Shown in pieces: positions 1-64,000 of a stretch of DNA of 64,000 nt. The first letter of the stretch is position 1; every line of letters starts with the position of its first letter. The translations under genes were made by a program, and so were the position numbers. The notes beneath the pieces were generated by a model. It was not told the origin of the DNA. It was given only the letters and a program-made list of their open reading frames with translations, and did no database searches. Origin of the DNA: Cephalotus follicularis (taxonomy: Eukaryota; Streptophyta; Magnoliopsida; Oxalidales; Cephalotaceae); NCBI GenBank assembly GCA_001972305.1, contig BDDD01001638.1:1-64000 (forward strand), in the 5' to 3' direction.

Positions 1-2018
1 TTGTGCAGCTTCGGGACGAACCTCGGGGAGTTGCTGTGACCTGTTGGATACGAAAAGGGGTGGACTTTCCTGTTCCTAACGTGGGACAAGAGGTAGGGGA
101 AAGCCATGACTGCATCTCAAGTTATTATCCATGCTTAGTCTATGATTTTGAGTGTATTTTATGCATGATTCTTGAACTGTTTTGGTTACTGGTTTGATGC
201 CATGACATGTTAGGTATGTGTTAAGTATCTGCATGTTGGTTTCTTGCCATGTTTACCTGTTGTTGTGCATGATTGTGGAATGTTAAAGTTACTGTTTGAT
301 AAGTCGTGAGGTAGAAGACGATACTGTTGGAAATGACGTCGACTTCTTTTAGAATAACGTCGACGCTATTATGTATATACACTATCGTTTTGAGGATCCA
401 GACCCTAAAACGTAGACTCCTTTTTATTTACATCGACGTCTTTTATGTTTTAACTCGACACTGACTGAGAAGGATCGACTTCCTTGGGAAGACATCGACA
501 CCAGGCTGTTTACCTGGATTCTGTTGAAAAGGCATCGACGCCTTTTAGTTGGACATCGACGCCTTTTCGATGATACGCTGTCGTTTAAGGTCCCTTCTGT
601 AGAGGAACAAGCTGACACTGAGGACCTGGATTTTGACGCATGACTCAAAGACATCGACGTCTTTGGGAAAGACGTCGACGTCTTTGGGAAAGACGTCGAC
701 GTCTTTGCTACTGTTTGAAGATCTCTTCACCGGATGATACGAAACGATCCCAATTCCTATTGGGGTGCATTTGAGCATATGTATGCATTGTATATGTACT
801 GTATACTGCCTGATTGTGTACCGTTTGGGTGTTGGTTATAATTTCTAATGTATTAACACTTTAGAAATAAATACATGTGTTCGGAATAAGATATTTTGGG
901 TACAAATTATGTATTGACCAAATAAAATATTTTCAACCGAACCAGTAACGATTTACACTACTGAAACTGTACTGATATTTTCTACAGGAAATACCTATTT
1001 TCAAATGTGTCACCTTTGTAAACATTTTGGAAATAACCCGACTGATGTGGATCAAATCGATCACTACTGTTTACTGTACTGTACTGCCTGAATTCATTGG
1101 TTGCTCTATGAATTGCTATGTGATTGTGCTTGAACCACTAGTTGCATGGCGGGGACTGCCAGCGCCGACTAGTGGAGGGTTGACCTAGGAGCATGGAGTA
1201 TGGCTGGGTAACTCACTGTACTGTTGCCTCGTTCGGTTGCCTAATGTAGGGGCCGGAGTGGGAGTGTAGCGTGGGGCCAGGAGTTGGCGGCGCTACACAT
1301 ACTGCCTGTTGTAGTCCTATGTGGACATCCTGACTGTTGTGGTCCTATGCGGACATACTGTACTGTACTGTTTACTGGTCCTTTACGGACATTCCTGTGA
1401 TTGTTGACGTAGCCCTGGCCGGGTTACTACTGCACTGTTACTGTATACATATATTGTTATATATGTAAAACTGATATTTTACTGTACCGATTATACGTAT
1501 TTTCATATATGTATAAACTGAGTCCTCACTGCACTGCATCATTTATGCATTCATGTCATGACATTCACTGATTTTAATCTTGAGCTGCTGTTATGCTTTA
1601 GCCAAGTGAGGACAACGGCTAACCCCCTACTTTTCAGATTGATGCGTGGACTGGCTAGACGGATATGGGCGATGATCCAGTTGTTGTTTTCTTCATTTTA
1701 CTTCTCCTGTTGTGCATTAAACCTGTTGTGGTTATGTTTTTAAGTTGTACTGTTATTTTGGTTCTGTTCTTAAAAGAATTCAAACTTGTATTGTTTTTCA
1801 CGCTCCGTTTTATGGGCGGTTAACTGTATTGGACCTACTGGACTAGCGTGTGGTATGGGACACACGTTACGGTTTGCAGCTTATGGTTTTGAGCTTCCGC
1901 AACAGTTGTACCTTGTTAAAGGTTTAAGTTTTAAATTTTACGGTTTTGCATGAGCTGTATTATATGTTAGTTGCCTTTACCGCTTTAATGCTGCGTTTAT
2001 TGTAAACGGGGTGTGACA
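1..2018 (+). mobile_element. Tekay-like Ty3/gypsy LTR, 3' part
   Basis: Seen: the segment ends in AACGGGGTGTGACA at 2005-2018, the same LTR 3' end found on elements A (20481, 51424) and B (reverse, 26071 and 47716). It also shares the middle module with them: a GTCGAC palindrome cluster (338-710), then two copies of a GGCCAGGAGTTGG-like motif (near 1185 and 1275). Inference: this is either the 3' LTR of an element lying left of the window or a solo LTR. The sequence right after it is not a primer-binding site, which rules out a 5' LTR of an element extending right. By alignment with complete relatives (about 2.8 kb) some 850 bases lie off the left edge. No coding capacity is expected in it. 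Short reading frames here are chance. Confidence 0.85.
338..710. repeat. GTCGAC palindrome cluster, GACGTC-arm type
   Basis: At least eight sites built on GTCGAC or a one-base variant. Two are perfect 18-bp palindromes, AAAGACGTCGACGTCTTT at 668-685 and 689-706, preceded by a near copy at 647-664. The three are exactly 21 bp apart. Others lie near 340, 357, 430, 493, 535 and 553. The cluster corresponds in position to the inner cluster of the related complete LTRs (see 60330-60660). Confidence 0.85.
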
Positions 2019-3017
2019 GGTTCACTCCCCAAATTCACTAGGGTTCACTCCCCTATTACAATTGAAGTATAAAATGTATTGTTTGAAGCTAAACCTCTCA
2101 CAGGTTGGATATTACAAGATACTAGCTCAATTTAGTGAGAACAAGAAAATAGCTTAAAATATAACAAGAAAAGCTCTTTGAATGTGATTTGATCTTTTGT
2201 ATGTTTGTTTTGCTTGATGATGTTTTGCACTTGTTGTTCCTCTTGTTCTCAGAGTTTTCAGTCTTCCTTTTATAGCCATAAAAGGTTTGTAGCCGTTGCT
2301 TGATTTGTGGAGGCTTTTGATTAATAAAACAGTAATCTGTGATTTTTATTTCTGCTGATATAAAGACGTCGACTTCTTCCAGAAAGGCGTCGATGTCTTT
2401 GTAACTGATAGCCGTTATGGTGCTTGAAGTAGCCGTTCCATGTTTCCCGGTTATTGTCTATTTAAAAAGGTGTTGACTTCTTTTCAGAAAGCGTCGATGT
2501 CTTTTCTGGGTAATCTCCAAGAATTTAGACTTTGAGTAACTCGTCGACTTCTTCTTTAATACTCGATGTGTTTTCTGGGAAATCCATGTTTCTCTAGTAA
2601 GACGTCGATGTCCACTGAAAGGCGTCGATGTCTTTAGTACGGACGTCGATGTCTTTGTCTTTAGAAGTCGATGTCATTGCATGAAAATGTTCTGTAACTC
2701 TGGTACCCAAAGACGTCGATGTCTTTGTGTTAGAGGTCGACGTCTTTCGTACGGACGTCGATGTTTTTGCCTTTAGAAGTCGACGTCTTTGTGTGAGATT
2801 GTCCTGTAACTTTAGGCATGAAAGGAGTCGATGTCTTTTATAAAGGAGTCGACTTCTTTCGTACGGACGTCGACTTCTTCCCTGGAAGATCAATGTCTTT
2901 GTCTGCAGATAGTAATTTTGCTTTGGTACTTATTTTGTAATTCCTTGCATATCAAGTAACTTTGTTAGATGCAAATATGTTATCATCAAAACAAGGATTG
3001 GGACTAAATAGTCAACA
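2019..3017 (-). mobile_element. SIRE/Maximus-like copia LTR, partial
   Basis: On the minus strand a sequence starting TGTTGACTATTTAGTCCC at 3017 leads into a TTTTGATGATAACA motif, the usual opening of SIRE/Maximus copia LTRs (family knowledge). The plus-strand boundary at 3017/3018 is exactly where homology between two copies of another element family (3018-3946 and 10900-13280) stops, which supports an insertion point. The left end is cut by the Tekay-like LTR ending at 2018. No coding capacity. It contains a dense GTCGAC palindrome cluster. The lineage rests on LTR-end motifs only. Confidence 0.6.
2365..2900. repeat. GTCGAC palindrome cluster in a copia-like LTR
   Basis: About fifteen sites of the AAAGACGTCGATGTCTTT type, many 21-22 bp apart (for example 2600-2665 and 2708-2780), alternating with AAGTCGACTTC variants. 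The arm type matches the Tekay-like LTR at 1-2018 although the LTR family is unrelated. Confidence 0.8.
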
Positions 3018-6306: not shown

Positions 6307-6429
6307 GTGTATGTAATGACCAGAAATTTTGTTGTTAAAGTTATATGGAAATATGGTTGCCATTGTTGAGATTGGCAAATATTTCAAGGGACCCGTGGTA
6401 TGACCCTATGCTCGGGAGGTTCGGGGGTT

Positions 6430-6499
6430 CTGCTCATCGGTGAGCAGACGGGGGGTCCCGCTGCCCGGACAGCGGGCATGGCCACGGGGGCAGCCCCCG
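6430..6499. repeat. Three consecutive GC-rich hairpins
   Basis: Three short inverted repeats in 70 bp: CTGCTCA/TGAGCAG with a TCGG tetraloop (6430-6447), CCCGCTG/CAGCGGG with a 6-base loop (6457-6476), and CGGGGGC/GCCCCCG around a single A (6485-6499). The block (about 6410-6510) is much richer in G+C than the surrounding LTR and is absent from the sister LTR at 62327. Confidence 0.8.
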
Positions 6500-6544
6500 C
6501 GGAAGAAAATCAAAATTCGTTATTTGTTTTAGGCTGGAAATGTC

Positions 6545-6885
6545 TAAAGCGCCGACGGTCCAAGGTAAAGCGGCGACACTTTGAAGGTGACTATCGATGC
6601 TTAGAACCCTCTTGGCGCCGGTTAAAAATAGAGAGTTTTGAACTTGGATAAATTCCTCTAACTGACGACGCTTGGATGAAAGCGGCGACGCTTATTGCAA
6701 CCGACGATGCCCTAAATGTAAGCTTCGATGCTTTGAAGTCAAGCATTGAGGTTGACCTGGACGAGACTTAAAGTGAAGACACTTTGTAGGAAAGCGTCAG
6801 TGCTTTAGTCGAGGAGGAAGTTGAAGAACTCAGAACAAGCCCTTAAGCGGCGACACTTGGAAGTGAAGCGCCGACGCTTTGAACT
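6545..6885. repeat. GTCGAC-like cluster, GCGCCGACGC type
   Basis: About twelve degenerate sites such as AAAGCGCCGACGG, AAAGCGGCGACAC, GAAGCGCCGACGCTTT and AAGCTTCGATGCTTT. They are the positional equivalents of the sites at 62425-62865 in the sister LTR. The core is often GCCGAC or GGCGAC rather than GTCGAC. Confidence 0.65.
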
Positions 6886-8532
6886 GCAGACTAGTTGGCA
6901 AAGTCTAACTTTTTGTCCTTTTGTGAGTTAAATTCATTAAATATGGGACAAGTGTCATGCCAGGGTTTAAAGTGGCCAGATATTTTATGTTTAGATGCCA
7001 AGTGTCACAATTTCATTGGAGAATTTAAGGCACATGGGCTATTTGTGTGGTGACTCATGGGAGAGAGAGGGAGGAGACTTGCTTCCCAAGAAATCTGCCT
7101 ATTTATGGGCATTTGAGAGTTAAGTGTAGCCATTTTGGCTGAGAAAGAAAGTGCTTCTACTGATAGTGAAGTGGAACATTCAAAAGGAGAAGGAGAAAAA
7201 GGAAATGCAAAGTAAAGTAAGGAAATCTAAACCCATTTTTATGAAAGCTTCCCCTATTTTGATTGAAACTATGCAGTAGCTTGTTTTATTCATATCTTTC
7301 TCAATTATTGATGAATTTTAGAATGGTATAATCTTTTATAAACTTCAATATTTCTACTTTAACTGTTATGTGTTATGCTTCTCAAAATTCTATCGAATTC
7401 TCGATGAGAATCCATGTTTCAATTTATTGCTCATGCCACTTTAAAAATTCATAACGGATTCAATTCTCAACCAATTTTTATGAACTTGAGCTTTCTGAAT
7501 TCGTGAATATGTCTACTTTAATGTTTATGTTTTAAGTTTCCTCTGAAAATGTGTATTTCTATATGAATGATCAGTTTTATAAATGTTATGCAAAGCTATT
7601 TTATGAGAGCATTTGAGTTAATTACTCAATTGAAGAGAAATGTTTATGAATTATGAAAGTAATGTTATACAATGATGTTTATGAATGGTTTGAACTGATC
7701 ACTCAAAGTATTAAAGAAATGTTTTATGAAATGATGAATGAACTACCCTTTGATTGCGATCCAAGGGGATTGAATCCGAGATGGATTAATGTTAATGGAG
7801 TGAGATGCTCACGGACATGCATGTGATGTAAGGATAGTAGTTCGGGAGTGCACAATGCCCTGGTGAAGCGGTATAAAAAGGGTTCATTAAGGTTTTATGA
7901 CTGCTATGTTATGTTTTTATGAAATGTTCTAGTTATGAATTTTAACTGGAAAAGAGATGTGTTTTACGAAATGTTCTAGTTATGAGTTTAACTAGAAAAG
8001 TGATATGATGAAATGTGTTTTACAATGAAAACCTTACTGAGCTATTTTGAGCTCATTCCTTTCTATGTTGTTTTCAAATAAAATGTTTTCAGGATAGGAT
8101 TGAATGGAGAATGCGAGCTTTAGATGGAGCTCTTAAGAAGAAGTTTTTTAAAGGAAATGTACTATGCAATAGTGTTTGCAGAAATGCTTTGACATGTAAT
8201 AAGACAATGTTTTCTGATGTAGTATGTGTTGATCCTATGCAAATGTATGAGAATGTTTAATTTATTACATCTTTAGATAAGATGAGAATGTTTAAAGTTT
8301 GGATTCAAGGCTATGTTATATGTTGAAATGCATAAGTTTATGATGTAATGTAGCTTTAGACAAGAGTGCTAAAGGATGTAACGGTTCACCCCATGCAACG
8401 CAACCAATCCTCAAAGTACGCTTTGAGCATTTAGCGGACTTGGGTCGGGGACGTTACAGTGTATGCGCTAATTAGATGATGTAGAATGAGGAGATTCTTT
8501 GATGTATTTAGTATGCAACAATTAGAACCAGT

Positions 8533-15026: not shown

Positions 15027-16046
15027 TGTTTAGCATAAAAATATGTTATTTTTAATGATTCATTTATTATGTTTTTATGCTTGGAATAGACTACTTTGGG
15101 TTGTTTTGATTGATTTTCAGGTTAAATGAGCCAAATTCTGCATATCTGGATTATTCGCGTCAACACTAATCTTTTTGGCGTCAACGTGCTGCAAGTTGAA
15201 CTTATTGGTGTCAACGCCATTGTCAAGTCGTGAACACAAAAAGTTGTGCAATTTAGATAGAAGGTATAATCGTTAACGCTTTGCAAAGAAAGTGTGAACA
15301 CCTCCTGCCTTCACATTAAAAGCGTTGACGGATTCCTTAAAAGCGTCAACGCTAATAAGGAAAGCGCTGACGGTCCATTAAAAGCGTTGACACTTTAACC
15401 AGACTACCTTCGCTTCCCTGCTTAGTGATATTCAATTCTTTGCTCTGCTCAAATGCCGCAGTATCCAAGTCTGCCATGCATTAAATTCAATGTTCTAATC
15501 AATACGATATCCCATGCTTGATTCCAACTAGCATCTCTAGTCTGCGCCTCAACTATGCTCTGCTCTATTAAGTTTGTATTTCATGTCTTCTCTGCAAGTC
15601 TACCTTCAAAGCATATCATGGTTTGACAAACATCTAAGTCTGGTCTGAGTAATACCCAAGTCTGCTTTGTTAGTCTGATATCTTCTAGTCGACTAGTCTG
15701 CAAGATGGTGCTCTGCATTAATGAAGATGGTATGTATCCCTCATACAAGCTTTGCCATAGCATCATAAAGTGGTGCTCGACAAAGTCTGATTTCACATAC
15801 AAAGCATCAACGTCTTGCTTAATACCGTCAACGCATAACACTCAAGTCTGCTCAATAACGCAAAATTCAAGTAGACACGTAGCGCACCAACGTCTTTACA
15901 TTATTAAAGCGTCAACACCCAGCATCAACACATTGACGCCTACGACGTATCAGGCAGCGAAAATGGAAAGTTTTAGAGTTTTAACAGATTGTAATATTTC
16001 ATTAGGTTAAATTTTATTTCCTTTTCTTTTTATGTGTACTTGTAAG
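15027..16046 (+). mobile_element. 3' LTR of Athila-like element #1, partial
   Basis: It starts TGTTTAGCATAAAAATATG at 15027, right after a G-rich tract, and aligns with 52101-53120, the 5' LTR of element F. The homology stops after TTGTAAG at 16046, so only about the first half of a roughly 1.95-kb LTR remains. It carries two clusters of GCGTTGACGC/GCGTCAACGC sites, at 15160-15390 (with 19-22 bp spacing) and 15800-15950. These are the CpG-decayed form of the GTCGAC motif. Confidence 0.82.
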
Positions 16047-17468
16047 TATTGTGCTTTGATGTATTGTTTGAAGTTTGGATGGTTTTGAGTGTAATTGGAT
16101 TGCACTTGAAGTAATTGTCTTGCATTTGTGAGATTACTCGACGCAAAACTGCATAGTGCATATTTTTTGTGTTCAGGTGATGTAACGCTCCGGTTTTTGC
16201 TGTCCTGATTGAAGGAGCACTGGGTGCTACTTTGAACTTGTAGAGGACTACATTACGAGTATTTCCCAAAAGGGGGAATGTAATTCGGAATTCGTTTGAC
16301 TAGTTTCGTGGACTTGTGAGAATGGTTTGTGCATAACTTGGATTGTGCAAAAATTTTCTATACTTTTATGTGTAGGGTAGTGTCTAGTTGTTCTAGGCCA
16401 TGGCAGCTTTTCTGCAACCACCGTCTAGCTCCAGGACACTCATACATGTAGTCTTGGTAAATGTACATGATTTCTAGTCAACTAACAATTGTTGAAGAAT
16501 GTCTGAATGCATAGGACGCATGATTTGGACTTGAAGTTAAAGTTTGCGTAGTGTAGATTTTTCCTCTTTGAAGCCTGCATAGTGCAGTTTAAGGACACCA
16601 TAATTCTGCATAGTGAAAAATATTGGTATGCCAAAAGTCCTATCAAAAGGGAAACGTAGTTTGTTAACATGGTGTCACACAGTTGTTGTGTATCCGTTGA
16701 TAGTTTTGATCAATACGTTGACGGTCACACAAAGCGTTGACTGTTCTGGCTGAATTATCGATGCTTAATTGGTTCAGGCACTGACGGTTGATTAAAGCCT
16801 TGATAGTTGTACTAAGCGCTGGCGGTTCTTGTAAAACTACAATCGCTTAGAGGGTTAGGGTTGGGTCCTAGCTGCTTTGGATCAAAGCGTCGACAATGGC
16901 ATTGACGCTTTGTGTGTAACCGGCGACGCTTACATCAAATTGTCGCCGCTTTGATAGAGAACAACATTGATTCTAAAAGTTTTGAACTTTTGGGTCAAGG
17001 CACTTTGGGGGTTTATGATCATTGCTTGATTTAGTGGGAGTTAAGCCATTAAACATCCTCTTGAATTAAGTTTTGGAATTAGTCATCGTGAAAGGCACTT
17101 GGTGTATTTAATTAAAGTTCAGATTGGATATATACTTTAATTTTTTTATGCATGACGAGTGGCTTATGGACTAGACCTAGTTTTGATTTTCTTTGTGGAT
17201 GATTATGTCTTTTATTAATTAATGGTTTTAATGGTCTGTAATAAGGTGCTTGCATGCACCGTTTGTTCTCTCTTCTATATCCCCTTTAGAATAGGATCTC
17301 TTCTCATATTTAATTTGTATTCCCTTCTTTAACTATTTGTATGTAATTCATTTGGAATTTAATTGCATTTGTAAAGAAGACTTTTGAAGGAACCATGGAG
17401 AAGAAAGCAAGAGAAGTACAAGACCATTGAAGGACATGTATGCATGGTGCATAATGTAATAGTTAGGT
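16047..17468 (+). other. Unassigned LTR-like debris
   Basis: No coding domain. A possible LTR start, TGTAACGCTCCGG, is at 16181, but I find no matching 3' end. The motif TGCATAGTGCA recurs four times (about 16150-16615). A GTCGAC-type cluster lies at 16700-16960. From 17090 to 17460 the sequence is AT-rich with nothing I recognise. Confidence 0.35.
16700..16960. repeat. GTCGAC-like cluster, GCGTCGACGC/GCGTTGAC type
   Basis: About nine sites such as AAAGCGTTGACTG, AAAGCGTCGACAATGG and CCGGCGACGCTT. They include mixed GTTGAC, GTCGAC and GGCGAC cores, as in the other LTR families of the window. Confidence 0.65.
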
Positions 17469-20481: not shown

Positions 20482-20485
20482 ATAG

Positions 20486-35620: not shown

Positions 35621-35659
35621 TATATATTTCCTTTACTATTTCATTCCTTAAATTTGTTC

Positions 35660-42137: not shown

Positions 42138-44872
42138 TGTCACGCCTTGAACCGTGGGAAGGGCCCCATGGCCTGACACGTGGCAATCTATACATTACAT
42201 CATTATCATCAACCGTAAAAATTTAAAGCTTAATAATCATAAATATAAACCATTTATTAAATGTGTGGATACACATACCCAGTTCGATACATAAGAAATA
42301 CTCTGCTACAATCCAGCAAACAATACAAATAATAGATAACAATTTCTTGCGAAAACCATCCATTAAAGTGCACTGCCGAGGAGGAGGAACTTACATTATT
42401 CTTTATCCTTGATACTGCTGCGATGTGCCACCACTACCTGTTCCTGTACCTGGCCCATTCAAAGAATGGGTCAGCAACTCTGGGGGTTGTGTAGGTTACC
42501 ACATATACGGCACATACCAGAGGAACAACCTAAAAAAAAGCAGAGGAGAAAACAATGCATGCATACCATAATGCATACCATAAATCATCATATAAAAGTC
42601 ATCATCCTTTGTCCTCAGACTACTCTACTCAAGCCATACATATCATTCACATTACAAAGGAGTTTGTCCAGTCATCCTATGGTCTGGTCAATATGTTAGG
42701 ATCAACTTTAGGCTCACATGCCCGTGGAATTCTCCTTCAGGTTCACCTGCCGAGCAGAATTCGCCCTTTGATCACCTGCTCTGGTGGTTCACCCTTTGGA
42801 TTACCAGCTCTGACGAAATTCACCTTTAGGTTCACAACTAAGCGGATTCGCCCGAGGATCACCGGCCTCGTGGAGTTCACCCCTTGGGTTCACCTGCTCA
42901 GCAAAATTCTCCCCATTTGGGCTCACCTTCCAGGAACCATCTATATATTTCCTTTACTATTTCATTCCTTAAATGTGTTCTGGGCATGAAAGTGTGCATG
43001 GTGCCTGCCCATGCACAAGACCATGTCCTAGCGCGTGCATGACGCATGCAGAGTGGCAATTCGTCTCATGAATGCTTACCAGGGGACGCATGCATATTTA
43101 TATACAATTCCTTTCCACGTGAGTGCATGCAGGGAGTACACGCCAGGGAACAACGCATGCATAGGATGCATCTTTGGCTCATGGCAGGGGACAACACCTA
43201 CGTTGGTGCATGCTCAGCTCGTGGCAGGGAAGGGCTCAGTGCCGTCACTTGCTCGGGAGAAGGCAGAGGAGAACCATGATGCAATCATGGTAGGGAAGAG
43301 CCATGGAAAACACATCTGGCATTGGCACACGATAGATGGCACCTCTGGCCAGGCACCACAGGGGGCTGACCAGGGGAGAGCTCAGGTGTCATGGCGACTA
43401 TGGCACACTATTCTAGACCATCCTCGGTTGCAGGGAAGTGGAAAGCCATGGTGCATGCATGACAGGGGAGAGACATGGAGGGCTCCCCAGGCACATGGCT
43501 CCCCAGGCATCTTCACCTCGAGCGCATAATTCCCCAGGAGTCATCTCCTCGACACCTCTGGCGCATTGGCCCGGCACCTCTGGTATGGCTTCTCAGCACC
43601 TTGAAACCTAAAGTGCCATTGAAGGGAAGGCTAGGCACCTCGGGCATGGCTGTGGCATCTCGGATGTATGATGACAGCTATTCGGCACCCCTGGCGCATG
43701 ACATAGTGGCATCCCCAGAGCACATTGCTCCTCGACGCATGTTGTAGGGACGTTGGCGCATAGCGCTGCATTCCTGGGAAGCATGTTTGGGCCATGAATA
43801 CATCCTTAGGGTGCATGGCGCTCGACGCTAATGCTCGCTCAACACATAGCAGCGTGTAAGCATTGTGTGTTAGGGGTATAGCAACAACGGCACTATCATT
43901 TGTACAGGATCACTTAAACACACTTCCAAACTTTACTATTCCTCACACATCAATAACAGAACCAGTGTACAACATCTATAATTCAAACACAAACAAGCAA
44001 CAACAATGAAACATACACAGCGGACACACATACACACACACACAAGCTGGTACGCGCTCGAACAAGAAGCAACCTACCCGGGGAAACAGTTGAAAACGGA
44101 GATTGCCCACTTTCTTCTTAAATTCTGGATTTCCTTGAAGTCGGGATCTGCTACACACCTTTAGCTTGCCAATTTCCTTCTTCCTTGCATAAATCTCTTG
44201 CTCCCAGGGCATGGGTATTTATATGTGGAAGTGCATATGACATGGTGGCTTCCTTGAACAGCACCCTTCTTGTCCTCATCTCCCATTTTTGCCAGAATCT
44301 GACCCCATCTCCCACTTTCCCACTTCTGTCGATTTCTCTAGAGTAAAATGTGCAATAAATGGCCAAAGTGTGTCCCCATGTTGCACATCATCATAATACA
44401 TGTGAGAGAAGATTCTAGAATTGTTTAGACAATTCTTCAACAGCACCCTTCTTGTCCTCATCTCCCATTTTTGCCAGAATCTGACCCCATCTCCCACTTT
44501 CTCACTTCTGTCGATTTCTCTAGAGTAAAATGTGCAAGAAATGGCCAAAGTGTGTCCCCATGTTGCACATCATCAAAATACACGTGAGTGAAGATTCTAG
44601 AATTGTTTAGACAATTCTTCAACGGATGCAGGCCAATTCTAAGACTTGGGGCAACACTTCCATTTTGAGCCTTTTCTCAATCCTTTAATTAAATCCCAGA
44701 ACCAACATAAATATGCCCAAAGAGAAGAATGGCTCTTTTAAGCCCATAGTAATAATTTATATTCCAATTTGGCCCAAGAAAAATACTTCTTAAAATTATG
44801 GCTCAACCCAATAGGAAAGAAAGAATTACAAAGCCCCAATAATAATACTTTTTAATATTTAGGGATCTTACA
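42138..44872 (-). mobile_element. Element C 5' LTR
   Basis: Minus strand: TGTAAGATCCCTAAATATT (44872) to CAAGGCGTGACA (42138), 2735 bp. It is collinear with the 3' LTR and differs mainly by a tandem duplication of about 182 bp near its start (44258-44620). GCATG-rich block 42990-43830, (AC)n near 44028-44044. Confidence 0.92.
44258..44620. repeat. 182-bp tandem duplication in C 5' LTR
   Basis: The block starting AACAGCACCCTTCTTGTCCT occurs at about 44258 and again at about 44440, nearly identical, including the CTCTAGAGTAAAATGTGCAA segment. The 3' LTR has it once (from about 36911), so it arose after or during insertion. Confidence 0.9.
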
Positions 44873-47715: not shown

Positions 47716-49516
47716 TGTCACACCCCGTTTCTGATAAACAACATTTAAGTGGTAAAAGCAATCAACATAACATTATCCAGTTTATGCAATTTTACCAATA
47801 AATAAAAACCTTTCAAACCATATCGAATCTTGCAGAAGCATTATATAAATAAGCTGAATTTAACTCGCATCACGCATCTCATACTACGTGATACCAAATT
47901 ATTCGATAACAATACCCAACATCATCGTCGATTGCCCTCAAACGGAGTGTGAGTAATAATACAAAACATAATACAATACGATATCCCAACTAAAATATCC
48001 ATCAACCATGATAAACATATTATCATGGGTACAGTAATCTCAAATAAAATAAAACATTATCCGGTTACAAAATATAAGAGAGGACGTCTCAGTCTTCCTT
48101 TCAATCCCAAGTGCGTGCAACCATAGTACCCGCAGCATCAATCTGAAATATTAGGGGGTTAGCATTTGTCCTCACTCGGCTAAGTAGTAAAGTCATAAGT
48201 GCAATTCGGGATTAAAGATAATGCATGTCATGTAATGTATCTAATCGTGGATGTAATATATGGTATCCGATAATAATACATATATATTGGTCCATATACA
48301 TGCATAACTGGCAATATAGCAGACATGACAATTAGCTACAATCCAACATTCCAATTTCAAAGCTACGAAGGCGCCGCCAACTCTTGTCCCAGACACTGTA
48401 CTACCCACTCCAGCCACCACTCTCCGGATGACTCGAAGCAGGTCACAATCCAAAGTCATTAGCACGACGGCTAAGCGACAACAACATGGGTTCCTCCCGC
48501 CAACTCCTGGCCCCAAGTGTCTAACTCGCTTATGAGCGTCAGTGGCGACTCCACCACCGCGACTAATACGGCATAATCCAATCACAATCCAATTCAAGTC
48601 ATTTATAAAAAGAAATACTTGAAAAAATATATATTTATCAAAATATAAATTTCCAAGTAAAATATGCATTATAAAATACTTGTAACAACCTATTTATTCA
48701 AAATATGTTACGATTCTTTTTAAACTGCATGTTTATTCAAAACATGCTTCAATCCCATTTTAAAACTGCATTTCGGTTTGAATATAACGGTTTATACAAA
48801 ATAATGATTTTCAATAAATCATGTATGCAACTCCCTAAAAATGATAATTCATTTTTAAAGCAATAACAATCCAATTCGATCCATAATCCAGACCCAATAC
48901 AATGCAAGTGTAATGCAATCATACGCTCAAACGTGCCTAGAGTCGTATCTAGAGTCGTTTCCTAGTTAACGGGTCCAATTCGGGTCAAACCAACCAAAGA
49001 AGGAGGATAAGAGTCGACGTTTATCCTTAGGGCATGGACCCTTATGTTCTCTAAGCTGCAACGTTTCATACGTTAAAATCCTAGGTGTAGCAAAACCACA
49101 GGCATCGACGCTTTACCATAGCATCGACGGTTAAGTGATAACAAGCGTTCATCACTTCAACCAATCTCAAACCAAGGGAGAAATCCATCCCCAAACGTTC
49201 ACGAAATCTGAGATACATTCAATATAGGTGTAGTACGCACAGCATGTCAGATTTCATGCAACCAAAATGCCAAACCATGAACTAGTCATGCAATCCACAA
49301 GTGAACAATTACGGCATCGACGCTTTGCCACAATACAGTGCCGTTTTGCCTCAAAATGCACCTTTAACATTTCTTTAACATTCCTCTTTCAAAATGTAAC
49401 CATTACAAAAGAGAAAACATCATCGAAGTAGGGAATTTAATTATTCTGATTAATTTCATAATAAGATTACATCAGGAATTAAAACATTACATTGTGCAAA
49501 AATCCCGGGCGTTACA
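47716..49516 (-). mobile_element. Element B 5' LTR
   Basis: Minus strand: TGTAACGCCCGGGATTTTTG (49516) to AACGGGGTGTGACA (47716). It aligns with 26071-28913 but is the shorter copy. Inner-type GTCGAC sites at 49010-49135 and one near 49318. A degraded primer-binding motif (GTATCAAAGC on the minus strand) is at 47699-47710. Confidence 0.9.
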
Positions 49517-49759
49517 CAAAGGTAGGGGATTTATACATGCAAATTTGAGTTCAAAGTTAGTGTATGGCCATTAATGAAATGCATGAATTTCATGATTGTT
49601 ATGGATTGATTGGACTGAATGATTGATGGCATGCATACTATGAGTATTGAACTTGCTATCGATGTTCTAATTGAGTGTATATTGAAATGGATTGCATGTT
49701 CTATTGATTGAACTCCCCTTGTATTGCATTAAAACGTGGAAGATGATGTTCTAGACTGT

Positions 49760-50105
49760 GTAACCGTCGACGTTTACAACGGTACCATCGACGCTTTGAC
49801 CTATTATGCGAAGAACACGTACTGGTTTGACGATAAACGTCGACGCTTAGAGATAGTGTCAACGCCCTGTTTGAATAAATGCGTAAGGATGGAAACATGG
49901 ACATTGACGCTTGAGGTCCTACCTCAAAGCATCGACGCCAAAGTGATAAGCGCCGACGCTCAAGGATCCTGACCTTGACGCGTCAATGCCAAAGACAAGT
50001 TTTGACGCGTAGAGTTCTGGATTACGCGTTGACACCAAGGATGGAAGCGTCGATGCTTAGAGGACATAAGCATCAATGCTTATAGGTTAAACGTCAATGC
50101 TTAAG
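49760..50105. repeat. Inner GTCGAC cluster of A 3' LTR
   Basis: About fourteen sites of the GCGTCGACGC type, for example ACCGTCGACG (49761), ACCATCGACGCTT (49783), AAACGTCGACGCTTA (49827), AAGCGCCGACGCT (49948) and AAGCGTCGATGCTTA (50045). Same arm type as the outer cluster at 25375-25535. Confidence 0.82.
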
Positions 50106-50527
50106 CTACTGTTTTCGATAATTTCACTTAGATGACGTGCGTTGACTCTGAAATGATTCTAAATGCATTTGAGCATATGTATGCTTTGCATATCGAACTG
50201 TGGATTGAAATGTGGTTATTTCTAAAAGCATTTATCATTTTAGAAATGCATGCATGATTTTAAAACAAATCACTAGTTTGTACGAAAATGTATAGTTTTT
50301 GAGGAATGGAAAAATGATTTCCAAAATTTGTGAACTGTTTAAAGGATTGTCTATACAATCAAAATGTAGTGTTCAAGTATTTATAACTTATAACGACTTG
50401 AAAATGATTTGATATATATTAAACAAATATATTTGATCAAGTAATTATTTTATAAATTGCTTCAATTGGACTGTGATTGGTATTATTGCCATATTATCTG
50501 CATGGCGGAGGTTGCCATGGATGGCTA

Positions 50528-50934
50528 GTGGCAGGGTTGGCCCTAGGGGCCAGGAGATGGCTGGGGGTACCCACTATGATTACTTAGCCGCCGTGCTAGT
50601 AACTTGTACTGTTGAACTGCTTCGACCCGACCGGAGACGAGGCTGAAGTAAGGAGTGCGACGTTGGGGCAGGAGATGGTAACACTTTCATATGTACTATC
50701 AGGTTACATCAATAGAACCAACAATCCTGTCCCCCAAAGGACCAGACAATCCAAACAGCACATACGAAAGCGTCACCATCTCCTGGCCCCAACATCGCAC
50801 TCCCTACTTAAGCCCCATCTCCGGTCGGCTCGAAGCAGGTCAACAGTACAGGTTACTAGCACGATGGCTAAGTAATCGCAGTGGGTATCCCCAGCCATCT
50901 CCTGGCCCCTAGGGCCCCTGCTACTGCATCACTG
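50528..50934. repeat. Large inverted repeat (arms about 168 bp) in A 3' LTR
   Basis: The left arm, 50528-50695, is nearly the reverse complement of 50763-50934, with a 67-base spacer. Both arms carry the CCAGGAGATGG module twice. Related LTRs (1-2018, B, 59011-61865) have this module once and in one orientation, so it was duplicated in inverted form here. It could fold into a long hairpin. Confidence 0.9.
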
Positions 50935-51429
50935 TGCATTCATTCATGACATTCATTATCATTGGACTCGAAATTTACTTATCTTTTCTCTACTTAACCG
51001 AGTGAGGACAGTGGCTCACACCCTACAATTTCATATTGATGCAGCGGATTGTCACCGTCGGGCTTTGGAGAGCAATTTGGAGTCTTAAATTGTATTTTTC
51101 TTTGGAGAAATGTTAAGTTGGATATTGTGTAATGGATTATGTTTTTGAATAATTGTTTAGTATGGACTACTGTATTGTTGTATTGAATGTTATTGTCCAT
51201 CCTTCGTTTAAGGTCAATTAACAATGGTTTATAATTTGTTGTTGTCAAACAAATTGTAACATGTAGTATGGGATGCATGTTACGTTTTAATTCAGCTTAT
51301 TTATGAATTCTTCCGCTATGATTTTATATGACTTGGAAAGTTTTAATTTTCCCATAATTTATGTAAGCTGAATATCGTGTTGATTTCCATGACCTAAGTG
51401 TTGTTATAGAAATGAGGTATGACAACAGG

Positions 51430-52100: not shown

Positions 52101-55100
52101 TATTTAGCATAAAAATATGTTGTTTTTAAGGAATTATTTATTATCTTTTTATGGTTGGAAAAGACTACTTTGGGTTGTTTTGATTGATTTTCAGGTTAAA
52201 CAGACCAAATTCTGCATATCTGGATTATTGGTGTCAACACCAATCTTATTCGCATCAATGTGCTGTAAGTTGAACATATTGGCGTCAATGCCATCCTCAA
52301 GTCGTCAACCCCAAAAGTTGTGGAATTTAGACAAAAGGTATAATCGTTAACGCTTTGCAAAGAAAGTGTCAACGCCTATTGCCTTTACATTCAAAGCATC
52401 GATGAATTCATTAAAAGCATCGACGCTTATAAGGAAAGTGTTGATGGTCCATTAAAAGCGTTGACGCTTTAACCAGACTAGCTTTGCTTCTCTGCTCAGC
52501 GCTATTCCATTCTTTACTCTCTCAAATGCTGCAATATCCAAGTCTGCCCTACATTAAATTCAATGGTTTGATCAATACGATATCCCATGCTCGGATCCGA
52601 CTAGCATCTCTTGTATTCACCTCAAGTATGTTATGCACTATTAAGTCCACATTTCATGTCTTCTCTACAAGTCTACCTCCAAAGCATATCATGGTTTGAC
52701 AAACATCCATGTATGGTCTGACTAATACCCAAGTCTGTTTTGTTAGTCTGATATATGCTAGTTGGGCAGTCTACAAGATGGTGCTCTGCATTAATGAAGA
52801 TGGTCTATACTCCTTATAGAAGCTCTGCCTTGGCGTCATAAAGTGGTGCTTAGCAAAGTCTGATTTCAAATACAAAGTGGTGGCGCCTTGCTCAATATCG
52901 TCGACGCTTAACACTCAAGTTTGCTCAATAACGCAAAATTCAAGTTGACGCGTAGCGCACCAACATCTTTACATTATTAAAGCATCAACACGTCGACGCC
53001 TACGACGTATCAGGCAGTAAAAATGGAAAGTTTTAGAGTTTTTAACAGATTGTAATAATTTCATTAAATACCATAATTAGGTTAGATTTTATTTCCTTTT
53101 ATTTTTATGCATATTTGTAAGTGTAAATAGAAGAGGAAGGCCACAAAAACAATATACAAGCTGTAGATAAGCTTGGGATAGGCTACACAGTTGCCTCCTC
53201 TTTCTTCTAGTTTTTACAGTTTTTATTCAATATTTTCTAGCTAACCTTTCAAGTTTTTTAGGGTTAGAACAAAGCCATTTGATGTATTAATAAAACTCCA
53301 GTAATGAAAGTCCCTGAACCTTTGATTTGTTCTTCAATTTTCTGACATCTGCCACACTTTGTATGTCTGATTAAAATCCACATACAATTTGTCTGTGAAG
53401 AAGAATTTTTCTAAATGAATGATGCTTACACGAAATCAATGGATGTCTACTCATACTGTTTGTCACGTTGAACACACTCCGTATAACATAGCATGTCTAC
53501 TAATACGGTTTGTCAATCAACTCACACTCTGCATCGACCTAGCATGACTACTCATACGATTTGTCATCACAATTACACTTCGTATTGACTTAGCAGCTAT
53601 TGATTACCAAGGTTTTATCAATCAAGTAAGTGAGTTCTCAATATAATCTACGGTGAGTTTCTATCCCCTAAAATTGATTTTATCTTGCATATCTTATCAA
53701 GCTCTATTTCTTATTTTGTTAATTATTAGTTTGCATGCTTTAATTTTTCTTTTTGTTGATCCATTACGCATAACCGTCGATGCCTTGTGATAAGTGTCGA
53801 CGTTTTTGTTGCTTTCAATTATCAACGTTGATGCCTTCCTTCATAGTGTTGACGCTTACAACCTCTGTTTAGTTTAGTTTATTTTTGCATGTTTAAGAGT
53901 AGATTTTGATAATAAACCTCAATTTTTCACACTTCGCCTAGGTTGAATAGATTAGAACTGATTTAACTTGTTTCCTAGCGTTCGACCCGTTACTGCACAA
54001 CCGTGCACTTACGGTATAAATTTAATTCTTTTCAAAATTTGTGACCAAGTTTTGGGGGTCGTTACCGGGGAAACAACGTTTTAGATTAGTTTTAATTTAT
54101 TTAATTGACTCATAGTATTTCTAACCAGTTCAAACTTAGTTAATCAGGATTCCTTTGCATAAACTATGATTAAAAAAAAAAAACTGCTTTAACTCATGGG
54201 CGGTCTGCATGAGTGGTCTGATTTAGTTTATGACTGATTGGGCACGTGGTCCAAATAATCGACTTGAGCGAATTAATCAACAAGCAAACATGATGGACGA
54301 ATGACCAATCCAAACTTCTCGCGATAAGTTCTATCCTGCAAGGATAGCGCAACCATCATGTATCCAGTTGCCTTCACCTTAGGGTAACAACTTCGAGTTG
54401 AAATCCTGGTTCATTAGCATGCTCCCTCACTTTCATGGTCTTCCAAATGACGATGCATATCTCTTCCTTCGTGAGTTTGAGAAGGTATGTGCCCTCATGA
54501 AAGTCCATCAACTCTCGGATGATGGGATCAAATTGCGATTTATTAATTTTTCTCTCAAAGATGGAGCTAAGAGGTGGCTCTATAATTTGCCCATTGGGTC
54601 CATGTCTACATGGGATCAATTCACAGTATCGTTCTTCAATAAATTCGTTCCTTTCCCTAAAACCAATAAGCTTAGGAATGACATTCTCCAGTTTCGTCAG
54701 AGAAATGTATGGTAAGATTCAAAGACCCCCTCTTAATGTGTCCTCATCATGGTTTAAACACTTGGAATTTATGCCAAATCATCTATGAAGGCATCGACTA
54801 CAAGACCAAGCAATTGGTCGAGTCAATGTGTCCTAATGGGTTCACCTCGTATAGCGATGAAAATGAGTCTTAGAATTTCCTACTAGATTTGGGTGACGAA
54901 CTAGGGAGTGGGAGTCCACTCAAGTAATGGAGAGAGCTTTGCCAAGTAAGGGGTACTTTATAGAAGGATCAGTGGCTAAGGAGGCACAGTTAGATAGTCT
55001 CCTTAAGAGATTAGGGTTGATAGTTAGGGTACCCAAGCACCCAAATCACATTAATCAGAGCACTCCTATGTGCTCTTGGTGCCAGTCACCAAGTCATGAT

Positions 55101-58937: not shown

Positions 58938-60324
58938 TGAACTTGAGTAGCGTTCTTCGGTTGTGGCCAATTCACAATACTCTCAATCTTTGAATGATCC
59001 ACTGATAATCTGTCACAGTCCATTTCGGTAAGACAACATTAAAGCGGTAAGACAATTTACATATAAATTCAGCTCATGAAAGTACCATAAAATTTAAACT
59101 TTTCAAAGCTACATGAGTTGCGGAAGCATAAAATTCATAAGCTGGAGAAACGTAACGTGCATCCCATACTGCACGCTACCCAATACAAGTCCATCATATT
59201 AATAGACCTCAAACGGAGCGTGATCACAGTACATTATTAATTTCCATCATTAACAAACCCATAAGTATGGTACATTAATAGTCCTTAAACAAAACCCGGT
59301 TTATTACAAAACAGGAGAATAAGAAAAACCAAGAACAAAACAACATAACAACTTGTTCTTCGTCCATGCTAGTCCAACCGGTCCACTACATCAATCTGTA
59401 AAGTAGGGGGTTAGCCTTTGTCGTCACTCAGCTAAGTCATAAAAGTAGCTCGGGATTAACATTAAATGCATGTCATGTAATGTATGTATAAATGATGCAG
59501 TGCAGGAAGCACCAGTTTATATATATATATATGAGAAATATATATATTTTAGCAGTACAGTAAAATAACAGTGGGTACATATATATACGAAAACATATGT
59601 ATGCAAGAACAGTACAGTCGTAACCCGACCAGGGTTACATCAACAGACACAGTAATGTCCGAAAAGGACCAACAGGCAGTATAGTATGTCCATAAAGGAC
59701 CACAACATTCAGGTAGTATGTGTAACGCCTCCAACTCCTGGCCCCACGCTACACTCCCACTTCGGTCCCTACTCTAGACAACCAAGAGAGGCAACAGTAC
59801 AGTACAGTGAGTCACCCAGCCAACTCCTGGCCCCTAGGTCAACCCTACCACTAGTCGGCGCTGGCAGCCTCCGCCATGCAACTAGTGGCTCAAGCACAAC
59901 CACAATGAATTCACAGAGCAAGCAGTAAATCAAACAGTAGAGAGTGCAGTAATAGTACAATAGTGATCGTTTAGATGGACAACATGCAGTTCATTTCAAA
60001 ATGTTTCGAAGGTCATAAACATTTGGAATATGCATGTTCAGTAATAGAAAATACTTTTAAACAGTTTCAATAAGCGGAATTTGCTTTCCCAAAATGCTCA
60101 AAAATATAATAACGTTTATCTTATATTTTCGTGTTCAACATAGTAGTTTCAACTTATCTGAACATTTCTACAGTAACGATACTTACAAATCATAATCAAT
60201 TTGTAGACAGTCAAGAACAGGTAGTAAATAGTGCATATGCAATGCATACAAATGCTCAAATGCACCCTAAAAGGAATCCGGATCGTTTCGCATCGTTAAA
60301 TAAGGAAACCTCCAAACAGTACCA

Positions 60325-60660
60325 AAAGACTTCGATGTCCATTAAAAAGTGTCGATGTCTTTATCCATCAAAGTCCATGTCCAAGTCCTTAGTGTCAGCG
60401 TTTCCTACTGTTTAAAGACGTCGATGTCCATTTTATACGCATCGACGCTCAAGGTCTGGAACCTTAAAACGTCAGCGTATTGCTTATGGCGTCGACACGT
60501 TAGGGTAGGAACCCCAGGCATCGATGTGTAATACGTCAAAACCCAAACATATAGCCTAAGGCGTCGATGTCTTTGCAAGGAAGTCGATCTATTTCACATC
60601 AGTAACAAAAAAAATAACCCAAAGACGTCAATGTACTTAAAAGGCGTCGACGTTTTTCGA
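60325..60660. repeat. Inner GTCGAC cluster, GACGTCGATGTC-arm type
   Basis: About eleven sites, for example AAGACTTCGATGTCC and AAGTGTCGATGTCTTT 21 bp apart (60327-60362), AAAGACGTCGATGTCC (60414-60429) and AAAGGCGTCGACGTTTTT (60640-60657). Confidence 0.82.
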
Positions 60661-61218
60661 GTAGTAGTCATCTTCTTCCTCACGACATAACAGACAGTAA
60701 CCATTACAACCCATAATCATGCAAAACAACATGAAATCAAGGTAGGGAACCAACATGCAGATACATATCACATGTCTAGCATAACATGGCATCGATCAAG
60801 TGACCAAAATCAATTCAATAATCATGCAATTCACACACCAAACCGTAGTCCATGCATGAACATTAATCTCAAGATTACAGTTATGTCTTCCCCTACCTTT
60901 TGTTCCAAGTTAGGAACTTGAAAGTCCACATCTTTGCGTTCCAAACTTGTCACAACAGGCCCTCCAGGTCCGTCCCGTTGTTGCAAGCCACCAGTTCCAA
61001 GTTCCAAGCTCCAAGCTCCAACCAAGTTCAACAATGGTGGTTTTGGGCTTTCTCTCCTTAACTTTCTGTTTTCTTACCCTCACTGTGTTTCTCTCAAGCC
61101 TCTGGTTCTTTCCCAATCAGTAACAGTCAAAGGTAAGAGGTGAAGGCTATATTTTATGCAACCCATGTTCGTTTCTTCTTCCTCTGTGTTTTTGTTGCAG
61201 GTCACATGTGTCTAGGAC

Positions 61219-61238
61219 ACCCCCCCCCCCCCACCCCT
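61219..61238 (+). repeat. Poly-C tract
   Basis: A run of about 14 C followed by A and more C, inside the solo LTR at 59011-61865. A simple slippage-prone tract. Confidence 0.8.
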
Positions 61239-61524
61239 GCATGTAATAGCTGGGCTCGTTTCTCAGTCCTTGTCTCAGCCCTCACGCTAGACAATGCCAT
61301 ATTCCTTCTAACCGTCCATTGCATGCACATATGTCCCTCCCTTCTTTGCAGTTGTTGCATGTTCATACCCATGCCACACTTGTCCTCACAACTTCAGTCA
61401 TGCAGGTCATGGAGTCATATGCATGCTCAACACGTCCCATTTCATGCCTCAAGGCGCCTGCAAAAGGCCCTAATTAGATTCCCCTTGCACGTTATTTTGT
61501 CAGTAGAGTAACGTGCCTGACATT

Positions 61525-61690
61525 CGATGTTTACGTATTGACGTCTTTTCAAAGACGTCGACGTCTTCTCCCTGTTTACATAAGGGCGATGATGTCCTCG
61601 CCCACATTGACGTGCATGTGCATGCAGTTACGTGCACTCTTTTGCATCAAGGACGTCGATGTGTTTAGAAAGGCGTCGACGCATTTCCTC
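61525..61690. repeat. Outer GTCGAC cluster, GACGTCGACGTC-arm type
   Basis: Five or six sites including AAAGACGTCGACGTCTT (about 61551-61567), AAGGACGTCGATGTG and AAAGGCGTCGACGC. Same arms as the inner cluster. Confidence 0.8.
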
Positions 61691-62326
61691 AAAAACAACG
61701 TCATTTTACCCCTTTTAACATTCCTTTAACATTTTACTCTAAAATTTAACATTGTTGGAGTTTGGAAAACATCATCAAAGTCTAGGAAGTCCATCACTTT
61801 ATTAATTCCGCAATAAGACACATTACATTGTGAAATTACAACATAGGAAAATCTCAGGTTTTACATAATCCATCACTAGACACAATATGACCAAGGAAAG
61901 TCACACGATCTAGCCAAAATTCACATTTACTAGATTTAGCAAATAATTTTTCTTTCAATAGAGTTTGCAACACAATACTCAGATGCTGCCTATGCTCCTT
62001 AATGCTCTTCGAATATATCAGAATGTCGTCTAAAAAGACCACTACAAACTGATCCAGATAGGGTTGAAATATCTGGTTCATTAAACACATGAATGCTGCA
62101 GGGGCATTCATCAATCCAAATGGAAGTTTCAGTAACTCATAGTGTCCATATATGGTTCAAAAAGCAGTCTTCTAAATATCAACCTTATGAATCCTCAATA
62201 GATTATAACTTGCCCTCAAGTCAAGTTTAGAGATCACAGTTGAGCCTTGTAGTTGATCGAAGAACTTCTCAATGGGTGGAAGAGGATACTTGTTCTTCAC
62301 TATCACTTGATTCAACAATCGATAGT

Positions 62327-64000
62327 TGTAATGACTAGAAATTTTGAATGATAATGTTAAGGAGTACGTTCTTCTACTTGGTACCTTGTTTACGTCATGT
62401 GTTATGTTGAAAACATCATTTACAGGGGATAAAGCATCGACGGTGTAGTTTAAGCGTCAACGCTTAGCCTTAACCGTCGAAATGGATGCTTCATACGTCG
62501 ACAGGGCAAGACAAAGTAACCTAAGTGCTGATGGTTTATTAAAGCAGTGACACTTTGAAGGTAAACCATTAACGCTTGGACATCTTCTAACACCTGTTAA
62601 AAATAGGGGGTTTTCAACTTGGACAAACTCCTCTAACAGACAACGCTTCGACGAAATTGGCAGCCCTTGGTCGTAACCGATGACGCCCTAAATGTAAGCT
62701 TCGACGCTTTGAAGTCAAGTATTTTAGTTGACCTAGAAGAGTTTGGAAAGCGGTGATGCTTTAAAGTGAAGCGTCAGCGCTTTGACCGGATAGGAAATTG
62801 AAGAACTCAGAACAAGCCCGTAAGCGGCAACGCTTGAAAGTGAAGCGCCGACGCTTTTGACTATAGACCAGTTGCCAAATCTAACTTTTTTTCTTTTAGT
62901 GAGTAAATTAATATTAATAAGAAGACAAGTGTCAATCTAGGGAGAGAGGAGACCAGATATTTATGTTGGTTTGCCAAGTGTCACCATTTGATAGGTATAA
63001 TTAAGCACATGGGCAACTCAAGGAGGTGACTCATAAGAGAGAGGGATAAACTTTCTCCCCAAGTAACTCACCCTATACATGCATGTTTGTGGCTTTAATT
63101 CAGTTAGTTTAGCTGAGAAGAGAGTGTTGTCTGTTGAGATTGACGAGGAGAATTCAGTAAGAGAAGGAGAAAAGGAAATCAAACCAAAATAAGGAAAATT
63201 CAATACCTATTTTTATCAAAGTTCCTCTGTTATTTTCTAAGATTTTATTGTGGATTGTTTTATTCACATATTTCCCATTTCTTGATGAAATTTTGAATTG
63301 TTTAATGTTTTGGAAACTTTAATATGTCTCCTGCAATTGTTTTGTTTTGTACTTTTCAAAATTCTATCGAACTTGTGATGAGAATCCATGTTTCATTTTA
63401 CTGCTCATGTGTTCAAAATTCTATCGAATTTGTGATGAGAATTCATGTTTCATTTTACTGCTCATGTGTTGCTGATATATGAAACTAGTGACTTTAAAAA
63501 ATTCATAACAGTTTCATCTCTCAGTCGAATCTTATGAACTTTAGCTTTTTGTATTTTTTGAGATGTCTACTTTAACTTCACTGTTTTATGTTTTCTCTGA
63601 AAATGATTACTTCTATATGAAATATAAGATTTAGAAATGTTATGCAAAACTGTTTTACGAATTTATTTGAGTTAATTACTCAAATGAAGAGAATTGCTTT
63701 ATGAATTGTGAAAGGAAATGAAATGAACCACTCTTGGATTGCGATCCAAGGGGAATGAATCCGAGATGGATTAATGTTAATGGAGCGATATGCTCACAGA
63801 CATGCATGTGATGTAAGGATAGTAATCGGGGAGTGCGCAATGCCCCGGTGAAGCGGAGTGAAAGGGTTCATTAAGTTTATAAACTTTAAATGTTATGAAA
63901 TGTTCTGGTTATGTCTTATAACTAGAAAATGGAATGCGATAAAGTATGTTTACTATGAACAACCTTTCCGGGCTATTTAAAGCTCATTCCTTTCAATGTT
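62327..64000 (+). mobile_element. LTR, same family as the solo LTR at 6312, runs off the window
   Basis: Starts TGTAATGACTAGAAATTTTG and stays collinear with 6312-8050 to the window end. It has a palindrome cluster at 62425-62865, a GGGAGAG-rich leader area (62940-63060) and the conserved GGATTGCGATCCAAGGGGA block (63736-63755, compare 7752-7772). It interrupts RT fragment G. Solo LTR or 5' LTR cannot be decided. No coding domain. Confidence 0.85.
62425..62865. repeat. GTCGAC-like cluster in the 62327 LTR
   Basis: About thirteen sites (AAAGCATCGACGG, AAGCGTCAACGCTTA, AACCGTCGAAATGG, GAAGCGCCGACGCTTT). Equivalent in position to 6545-6885. Confidence 0.7.

Follow-up and report, generated by a model that had tools for sequence, protein, structure and literature searches.

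A 64-kb window of the Cephalotus follicularis genome (positions 1 to 64,000 of the forward strand of contig BDDD01001638.1, GenBank assembly GCA_001972305.1) is a nest of plant long terminal repeat (LTR) retrotransposons, and the LTRs of several otherwise dissimilar lineages within it carry clusters of short palindromes centred on GTCGAC. An earlier note on this stretch reported these clusters and proposed that either a host factor recognises the motif or the motif has spread between elements. The present analysis confirms that the shared clusters are real. The first of the two proposals stands as the best reading and gains from two further features, namely an extended dyad that recurs across the lineages and a helical pitch that is present in most lineages taken singly. 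A motif common to unrelated LTR families suggests a common DNA-binding protein, and we give about an even chance to the possibility that the clusters are cis-regulatory, enhancer-like arrays for a host DNA-binding factor that several LTR lineages exploit.

GTCGAC occurs 45 times in the window, compared with 5.9 occurrences expected under an order-1 Markov model and 7.1 under an order-2 model, and has the highest order-1 ratio of all 64 palindromic 6-mers; the order-4 expectation is 33.5, which is high because a model of this order absorbs the motif itself. The seven 6-mers that most distinguish motif-bearing from other regions, CGTCGA (77 vs 6), AGCGTC, AAGCGT, CGACGC, GACGTC, ACGTCG and GTCGAC, are all fragments of the GTCGAC-centred motif. 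Aligned contexts reveal a repeat unit longer than this core, a dyad of 16-18 bp with three types of arms: the AC type, AAAGAC-GTCGAC-GTCTTT, in the LTRs denoted T3 and in a SIRE-like LTR; the GC type, AAAGC-GTCGAC-GCTTT, in Tekay-like elements I and II, Athila-like LTRs, the 6312/62327 family and the debris that starts at 16047; and the CA type, AACA-GTCGAC-TGTT, with 13 matches in a solo LTR and one each in the SIRE-like LTR and the debris. With 4 mismatches tolerated in 16 positions or 5 in 18, the extended consensuses match 130 times (overlapping matches; the number of distinct centres is 111, since one site can fit two consensuses). The motif-bearing regions, which cover 24,819 of the 64,000 bases, contain 127 of the 130 matches and the remaining 39,181 bases contain three (inside/outside, 73/2 for GC, 39/1 for AC and 15/0 for CA), whereas 10 shuffles per region and consensus give an expectation of 0 to 0.3. 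Similarly, 33 of the 45 GTCGAC sites fall within ten motif-bearing LTR intervals (sum over regions), so that the arrays are located in LTRs and not in coding interiors. The regions concerned are the following, where SIRE and Athila are labels that we presume for the respective LTR groups.

1..2018, forward strand: Tekay-like LTR T3a, 3' part, with the end GGGGTGTGACA at 2018; cluster at 338-700 with nine AC-type matches.
647-707, in T3a: 21-bp units AAAGACGTCGACGTCTTTGGG, head-to-tail, about three units (2.9 copies).
2019..3017, reverse strand: SIRE-like LTR, adjoining T3a at 2019 and probably cut by it; cluster at 2368-2874 with 16 AC-type matches.
6312..7953, forward strand: first copy of the 6312/62327 family, with an LTR-like start at 6312; eight GC-type units at 6546-6880, spaced by 21, 112, 40, 51, 21, 53 and 21 bp.
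15027..16046, forward strand: first Athila-like LTR; GC-type units at 15159-15396 and 15801-15916, mostly with GTTGAC/GTCAAC cores.
16047..17468, forward strand: LTR debris; GC-type units at 16717-16952.
19379..20487, forward strand: 5' LTR of Tekay-like element I; core sites at 19543-19662 and a primer-binding-site-like string, TGGTGTCAGAGC, at 20486.
26071..28914, reverse strand: LTR A of Tekay-like element II; clusters at 27375-27755 and 28575-28718, with a perfect 26-bp palindrome centred between 27377 and 27378.
31303..34081, reverse strand: solo Tekay-like LTR that interrupts pol of element II; CA-type units at 32537-32858 and 33721-33847 that read AACAGTCGACTGTT (and AACAGTCGGCTGTT).
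34816..37342, reverse strand: LTR of family C, negative control; no extended unit of any arm type in the consensus scan.
42138..44872, reverse strand: second LTR of family C, negative control, likewise free of units of any arm type.
47716..49516, reverse strand: LTR B of element II, the partner of A (92% identical over 1606 bp); core sites at 49013-49321.
49517..51428, forward strand: Tekay-like LTR fragment related to element I; core sites at 49658-50146.
52101..54045 (right end estimated), forward strand: second Athila-like LTR; units at 52233-52465, 52900-52997 and 53771-53853.
59011..61865, reverse strand: Tekay-like LTR T3b; clusters at 60351-60796 and 61557-61680.
62327..63929, forward strand: second copy of the 6312/62327 family; eight GC-type units at 62431-62857, spaced by 20, 90, 154, 52, 21, 53 and 21 bp.

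Most of the LTRs in which clusters had been described exceed the expectation from 200 dinucleotide shuffles of each region. The GTCGAC counts are 4 vs 0.28 in 1-2018, 6 vs 0.23 in 2019-3017, 2 vs 0.06 in 19379-20487, 4 vs 0.20 in A (26071-28914), 7 vs 0.17 in 31303-34081 (where GTCGGC/GCCGAC also reaches 6 vs 0.32), 2 vs 0.19 in 49517-51428 (p 0.035), 2 vs 0.05 in 52101-53122 and 4 vs 0.28 in 59011-61865. The core by itself gives weaker signals in LTR B (1 vs 0.09, p 0.09), 15027-16046 (1 vs 0.11, p 0.11, along with GTTGAC/GTCAAC at 8 vs 0.58), 16047-17468 (1 vs 0.16) and 62327-63929 (1 vs 0.13), and is absent from 6312-7953 (0 vs 0.09). Two non-LTR regions are slightly high (17469-19378, 2 vs 0.23, and 54285-57407, 2 vs 0.14; p 0.015 each). 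The regions that had been named as a motif-free contrast prove to be such: the per-region count is zero in both C LTRs, in 46502-47695 and in 10900-13280. The 6312/62327 family, previously listed among the carriers, qualifies through its extended dyads (eight per copy) but not through GTCGAC, which is present there only 0 and 1 times. Its units have cores such as GGCGAC and GCCGAC, so that the conserved half site looks like CGACGCTTT.

The core variants differ between the groups. Enrichment of GTCGAC extends to the AC, GC Tekay-like, GC Athila-like and CA groups but not to 6312/62327; GACGTC passes the enrichment filter in the AC group only (21 vs 0.8); and ATCGAC, which breaks the central dyad, reaches 21 vs 2.0 in the AC group and 14 vs 2.7 in the GC Tekay-like group. 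The AC-group LTRs also match the GC consensus (5, 6 and 3 times), and A and the second Athila-like copy contain two AC-type matches each. GTTGAC and GTCAAC had been interpreted as CpG-decay forms of the core, an explanation that does not cover all variants: decay predicts equal numbers of CATCGACG/CGTCGATG and TGTCGACG/CGTCGACA, and the counts are 29 vs 5 (p 4e-5, a contrast inflated by the relatedness of tandem copies, which the test ignores). Given this asymmetry, simple CpG decay from a single ancestral core is an incomplete account.

The lineages share the motif without other detected similarity. When each unit is masked together with 8 flanking bases, a blastn comparison (word 7, E 1e-4) yields no mutual match among the Tekay-like, SIRE-like and Athila-like LTRs, the 6312/62327 family and the 16047 debris, in agreement, at the sensitivity used, with the claim of the earlier note that these families have no LTR homology otherwise. 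Under the same masking, 20 of the 21 pairs among the seven Tekay-like LTRs (T3a, T3b, A, B, solo, 19379-20487 and 49517-51428) align at 59-91%, and these LTRs are therefore counted as one lineage. The only link between groups that appears without masking connects the SIRE-like LTR to T3 via the motif itself (80% over 66 bp with T3a and 75% over 67 bp with T3b). This link, together with the AC type common to the two and the adjacency of T3a and the SIRE-like LTR in the window, favours transfer of the array as a block between lineages, by recombination, gene conversion or template switching in reverse transcription, and spread of the motif is indeed possible for T3 and the SIRE-like LTR. As an explanation of the arrays in general, block transfer is improbable: no between-lineage match survives masking, there are three arm types with different cores, and the central positions (7-8) of the 15-base linkers in 21-bp pairs match between families at the background level of 0.21-0.24. 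Thus, neither the masked alignment nor the linker comparison shows the linker and flank similarity expected of one transferred block, and sharing of the clusters only through one recently recombined block, which had been named as the outcome that would overturn the proposal, finds no support in these two comparisons.

The motif also varies within lineages. Over 1259 masked bases, LTR A and the solo LTR share 80% identity, yet the arms of the former are of GC type and those of the latter of CA type. The interior (pol) of the C family aligns to element I at 65-67%, and a primer-like site lies beside a C LTR; C is thus related to element I yet has no units, so that kindred elements can differ in whether they carry the motif, and C provides a natural comparison within this set.

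The second property of the arrays is their pitch. Of the 90 distances of 10-110 bp between successive core sites, 41 measure 19-22 bp; without the duplicate copies B and Ath2 the proportion is 39 of 81, with 27 of the 81 at exactly 21 bp. In tests of single lineages, with sites jittered by as much as 60 bp for comparison, the same preference is seen in T3 (8/26), the SIRE-like LTR (10/16), Athila-like LTRs (4/20), GC Tekay-like LTRs (11/30), the CA solo LTR (6/15) and the debris (2/4), with p between 0.00025 (the test floor) and 0.0043; it is marginal in the 17469/57408 tandem region (2/9, p 0.013), and the control regions have 0/18 spacings in this range. Extended units give the same picture (19-22 bp accounts for 44 of the 84 spacings between 10 and 120 bp), and their longer spacings (n=39) fit a period of 10.20 bp best (p 0.0007; non-redundant n=33, p 0.0047). 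Even the spacings that are not near multiples of 21 show a period of 10.15 bp (n=30, p 0.006; non-redundant n=25, p 0.025). Phasing at about 10.2 bp implies that the sites share one face of the helix, though the central linker positions are only at background (0.27-0.30 within families). Since the pitch is largely kept where the linker sequence is not, tandem duplication alone is not a sufficient explanation.

This reasoning bears on the view that the arrays are a functionless minisatellite, made and spread without selection by slippage of palindromic 21-bp units in a fast-evolving part of the LTR. Alignments of related LTRs stop at the clusters (A/solo at 27379/32589, T3a/T3b between 351 and 668), the units at 647-707 are recent and head-to-tail, the SIRE-like LTR contains a 112-bp duplication, and the linker positions next to the centre exceed background within families, all as slippage would have it. 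Such a process, however, leaves unexplained why the same motif occurs in LTRs that have no other similarity, why the pitch is retained despite a randomised central linker and why odd multiples of the helical turn are found, and we regard it as a poor candidate.

The palindromes had been described as imperfect, and so they are. Strict dyads, with at least 7 of 8 arm positions paired, exceed shuffles in T3a, the SIRE-like LTR, the solo LTR, 49517-51428, 52101-53122, T3b and 62327; there is no such excess in A, B, 19379-20487 and 15027-16046. Arm-by-arm pairing around TCGA is above permuted pairing in T3 (p 0.004) and the Athila-like LTRs (p 0.0065). Some strict-dyad excess is also seen in 10900-13280 (5 vs 1.18) and 37343-42137 (6 vs 1.75). 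Generic palindromicity is unsupported as an explanation; the cores of strict dyads outside the motif are mostly A+T-rich or mixed, and these dyads follow no family pattern. A role for structure rather than sequence, with the palindromes acting as RNA hairpins or DNA cruciforms, appears very unlikely. RNA folding of two clusters does beat dinucleotide shuffles (z -5.13 and -5.10), a score that any palindrome array would produce anyway, but the dyad-breaking ATCGAC is abundant, the pairing excess is absent from most families, and nothing in the window attains the gathering score of an Rfam family.

Within the SIRE-like LTR, the array occupies sense positions 144-645, upstream of a candidate TATA box, TATAAAAG, at sense 744 (2267-2274). 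The three LTRs of about 2.8 kb, A, solo and T3b, each contain two clusters, at sense positions of about 186-356 and 1070-1540, and few sites lie downstream of the clusters (none in A, two in solo and two in T3b). An empty stretch of 766-868 bp separates the two clusters in all three.

These observations are compatible with the following scheme. A dimeric sequence-specific host factor, or a few close paralogues, would bind the repeated dyads in the upstream part of the LTR, recognising a GTCGAC-centred dyad with a half site of roughly CGACGCTTT or a variant thereof. Neighbouring dimers would sit on the same face of the helix, two turns apart, perhaps binding cooperatively, and the factor would aid transcription from the LTR through activation or chromatin opening. 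Unrelated LTR lineages would have evolved or kept the arrays because the factor helps to transcribe them.

Inducible LTR enhancers are familiar from the heat-shock elements of ONSEN and the repeated U3 boxes of Tnt1, each of which is known from a single family. In these, U3 holds several copies of a host-factor site ahead of the TATA box, a layout that the putative binding arrays in the window may share, at least in the SIRE-like LTR; unlike ONSEN and Tnt1, the arrays described here consist of one motif in several otherwise dissimilar lineages and have a two-turn pitch. As to the factor itself, we can offer two guesses, each of them rather unlikely when taken singly. One is a DREB/CBF-type AP2 protein. 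A preference of such proteins for (G/A)(C/T)CGAC would fit GTCGAC, ATCGAC and GCCGAC. The other is a bZIP protein of the FD/group-A kind, given that the units have the appropriate ACGT- or TCGA-containing core (e.g., GACGTC and GTCGAC). Motif mutation and chromatin immunoprecipitation show FD acting at, and occupying, two sites of the Arabidopsis FT promoter, a GTCGAC motif and a GACGTC C-box; mutation of the GTCGAC motif derepresses the reporter and lowers FD occupancy (PMC13360168). The LTR units have the same GTCGAC core, and the AC type holds two GACGTC boxes that overlap this core; the FD sites, however, are single, lie in a host gene and act in repression of FT, in contrast to the arrays of 16-18 bp dyads in LTRs.

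A different identity of the factor would follow from comparison with the VANC proteins of Arabidopsis VANDAL transposons, whose anti-silencing activity is, by analogy, the closest functional precedent. The arrays might be targets of a sequence-specific anti-silencing or silencing factor, possibly one encoded by another transposon; we consider this version unlikely. VANC targets are short non-coding motifs amassed in transposons as tandem-like repeats that vary between related elements, and one such motif is also found in the unrelated element AT9TSD1 (PMC5735166, PMC10398659). The LTR arrays share this anatomy, being short motifs in tandem repeats that diverge between related elements, as illustrated by the different arms of A and the solo LTR, and intact GC and AC units carry three CpGs. 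The differences are substantial, however. VANDALs are DNA transposons with their own binding protein, their motifs YAGTATTAY and AGTTGTCC/AGTTGTAC do not resemble GTCGAC, and the word 'palindrome' is absent from PMC5735166, whereas the present arrays consist of dyads at helical pitch in the LTRs of several unrelated retrotransposon lineages and have a putative binder; moreover, a documented GTCGAC binder, FD, exists among host transcription factors. Palindromes and nested LTR elements are also combined in a report on integration, which describes a weak preference of LTR retrotransposons for short palindromes and no common targeting of LTRs (PMC6911290); the palindromes there mark insertion points, and those in the window are resident arrays inside LTRs.

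Returning to the arrays as enhancers for a DNA-binding factor, a stronger version can be formulated. A single dimeric factor, host- or transposon-encoded and binding cooperatively at two-turn intervals, may have been recruited independently by about five unrelated LTR lineages in one genome, both gypsy and, if our presumed SIRE label is right, copia. The switching of arms between related elements, with core and pitch kept, would then reflect a continuing contest over recognition, and the motif would be a control code shared among competing transposons. This version is possible but more doubtful than not. The control regions of plant LTR families are commonly regarded as private to each family; a phased dyad shared by otherwise dissimilar LTRs would point to a common transcriptional or epigenetic switch for much of the transposon load of a large genome. 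The 21-bp array offers a concrete probe for fishing out the factor, and the pitch predicts that insertion of a half turn would abolish activity and that insertion of a full turn would not. A literature search found no report of such an array, nor did the motif strings match in full text, in a corpus that leaves subscription journals mostly uncovered.

Several points weigh against an enhancer array for a host factor. Every count is drawn from a single 64-kb window in which many of the element copies are related, and the consensuses and motif-bearing regions were picked post hoc, on data already seen, so that the contrast with shuffles carries more weight than the absolute counts. The differences among the AC, GC and CA arms exceed the tolerance expected of one fixed factor. 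The arm-pairing excess is absent from the SIRE-like, TI, A/B, solo, 62327 and 16047 sets (p 0.69, 0.37, 0.36, 0.16, 0.50 and 0.33, respectively). Only 1 of 7 core-only spacings in 6312/62327 falls at 19-22 bp (p 0.16), and an earlier core-only phase test outside the 19-22 bp range was weaker (p 0.03 and 0.09). Linker positions 6, 9 and 10 are above background within families (0.61, 0.41 and 0.47), which makes some duplication likely, although these higher values arise partly because the arms extend into the linker. Finally, a second TATAAAAG of the SIRE-like LTR lies inside the array, at sense 176, and the Tekay-like LTRs have no clear TATA box.

A protein search with the translation of the solo-LTR array returned 20 candidates, none at E <= 1. 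One 18-base pattern has no exact match in viral contigs, as expected for a plant motif, and one 31-base pattern has none in the genome contigs searched. For the RNase H of element I, no relative was confirmed in viral contigs, which is likewise expected for a plant motif. In protein comparisons, gag yielded six matches, the best named one being from Colocasia at 36% identity, and RNase H, with 8000 candidates scored, gave 7931 hits; the named proteins among the 120 listed include some from Tanacetum, Cephalotus and Coffea.

The nesting of the elements is apparent from self-alignment. Twelve of the 20 open frames scanned match Pfam at E <= 0.01, ten of these reaching the curated cut-off, and the domains found are aspartyl protease, reverse transcriptase, RNase H, integrase and retrotransposon gag. 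There is no copia-specific domain among the Pfam matches of the scanned open frames, a search with the primer-site string that we associate with Athila gave no match, and no tRNA gene was found in the 64-kb window. Strings that we take to be primer sites of the Met type lie beside LTR ends of elements I, C and II; window-wide they number 6 vs 4.8 expected, which is not above chance.

LTR B lacks about 1 kb that is found in A (27675-28705), a loss that removes part of the motif region. The family-C element (34816-44872) is nested inside element II, and one of its LTRs contains a 182-bp head-to-tail duplication (44253-44623, 97% identical) that is represented by a single copy in the other (36904-37085). 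A separate tandem array of 20/21-bp subunits with a 41-bp period (AAGACCTCAGTACTTGAAGGC) is present at 18742-19378, 51427-51723 and 58690-58935. It adjoins the LTR ends at 19379 and 51428, stops about 75 bp before 59011, also has a pitch of about two helical turns and contains the palindrome AGTACT. In both copies of the 17465/57408 family, 38-bp tandem repeats (GGCTAGAACCTTCGTGGGACTAGTAATCGGATTG...) at 18513-18733 and 58476-58668 directly precede the 41-bp arrays.

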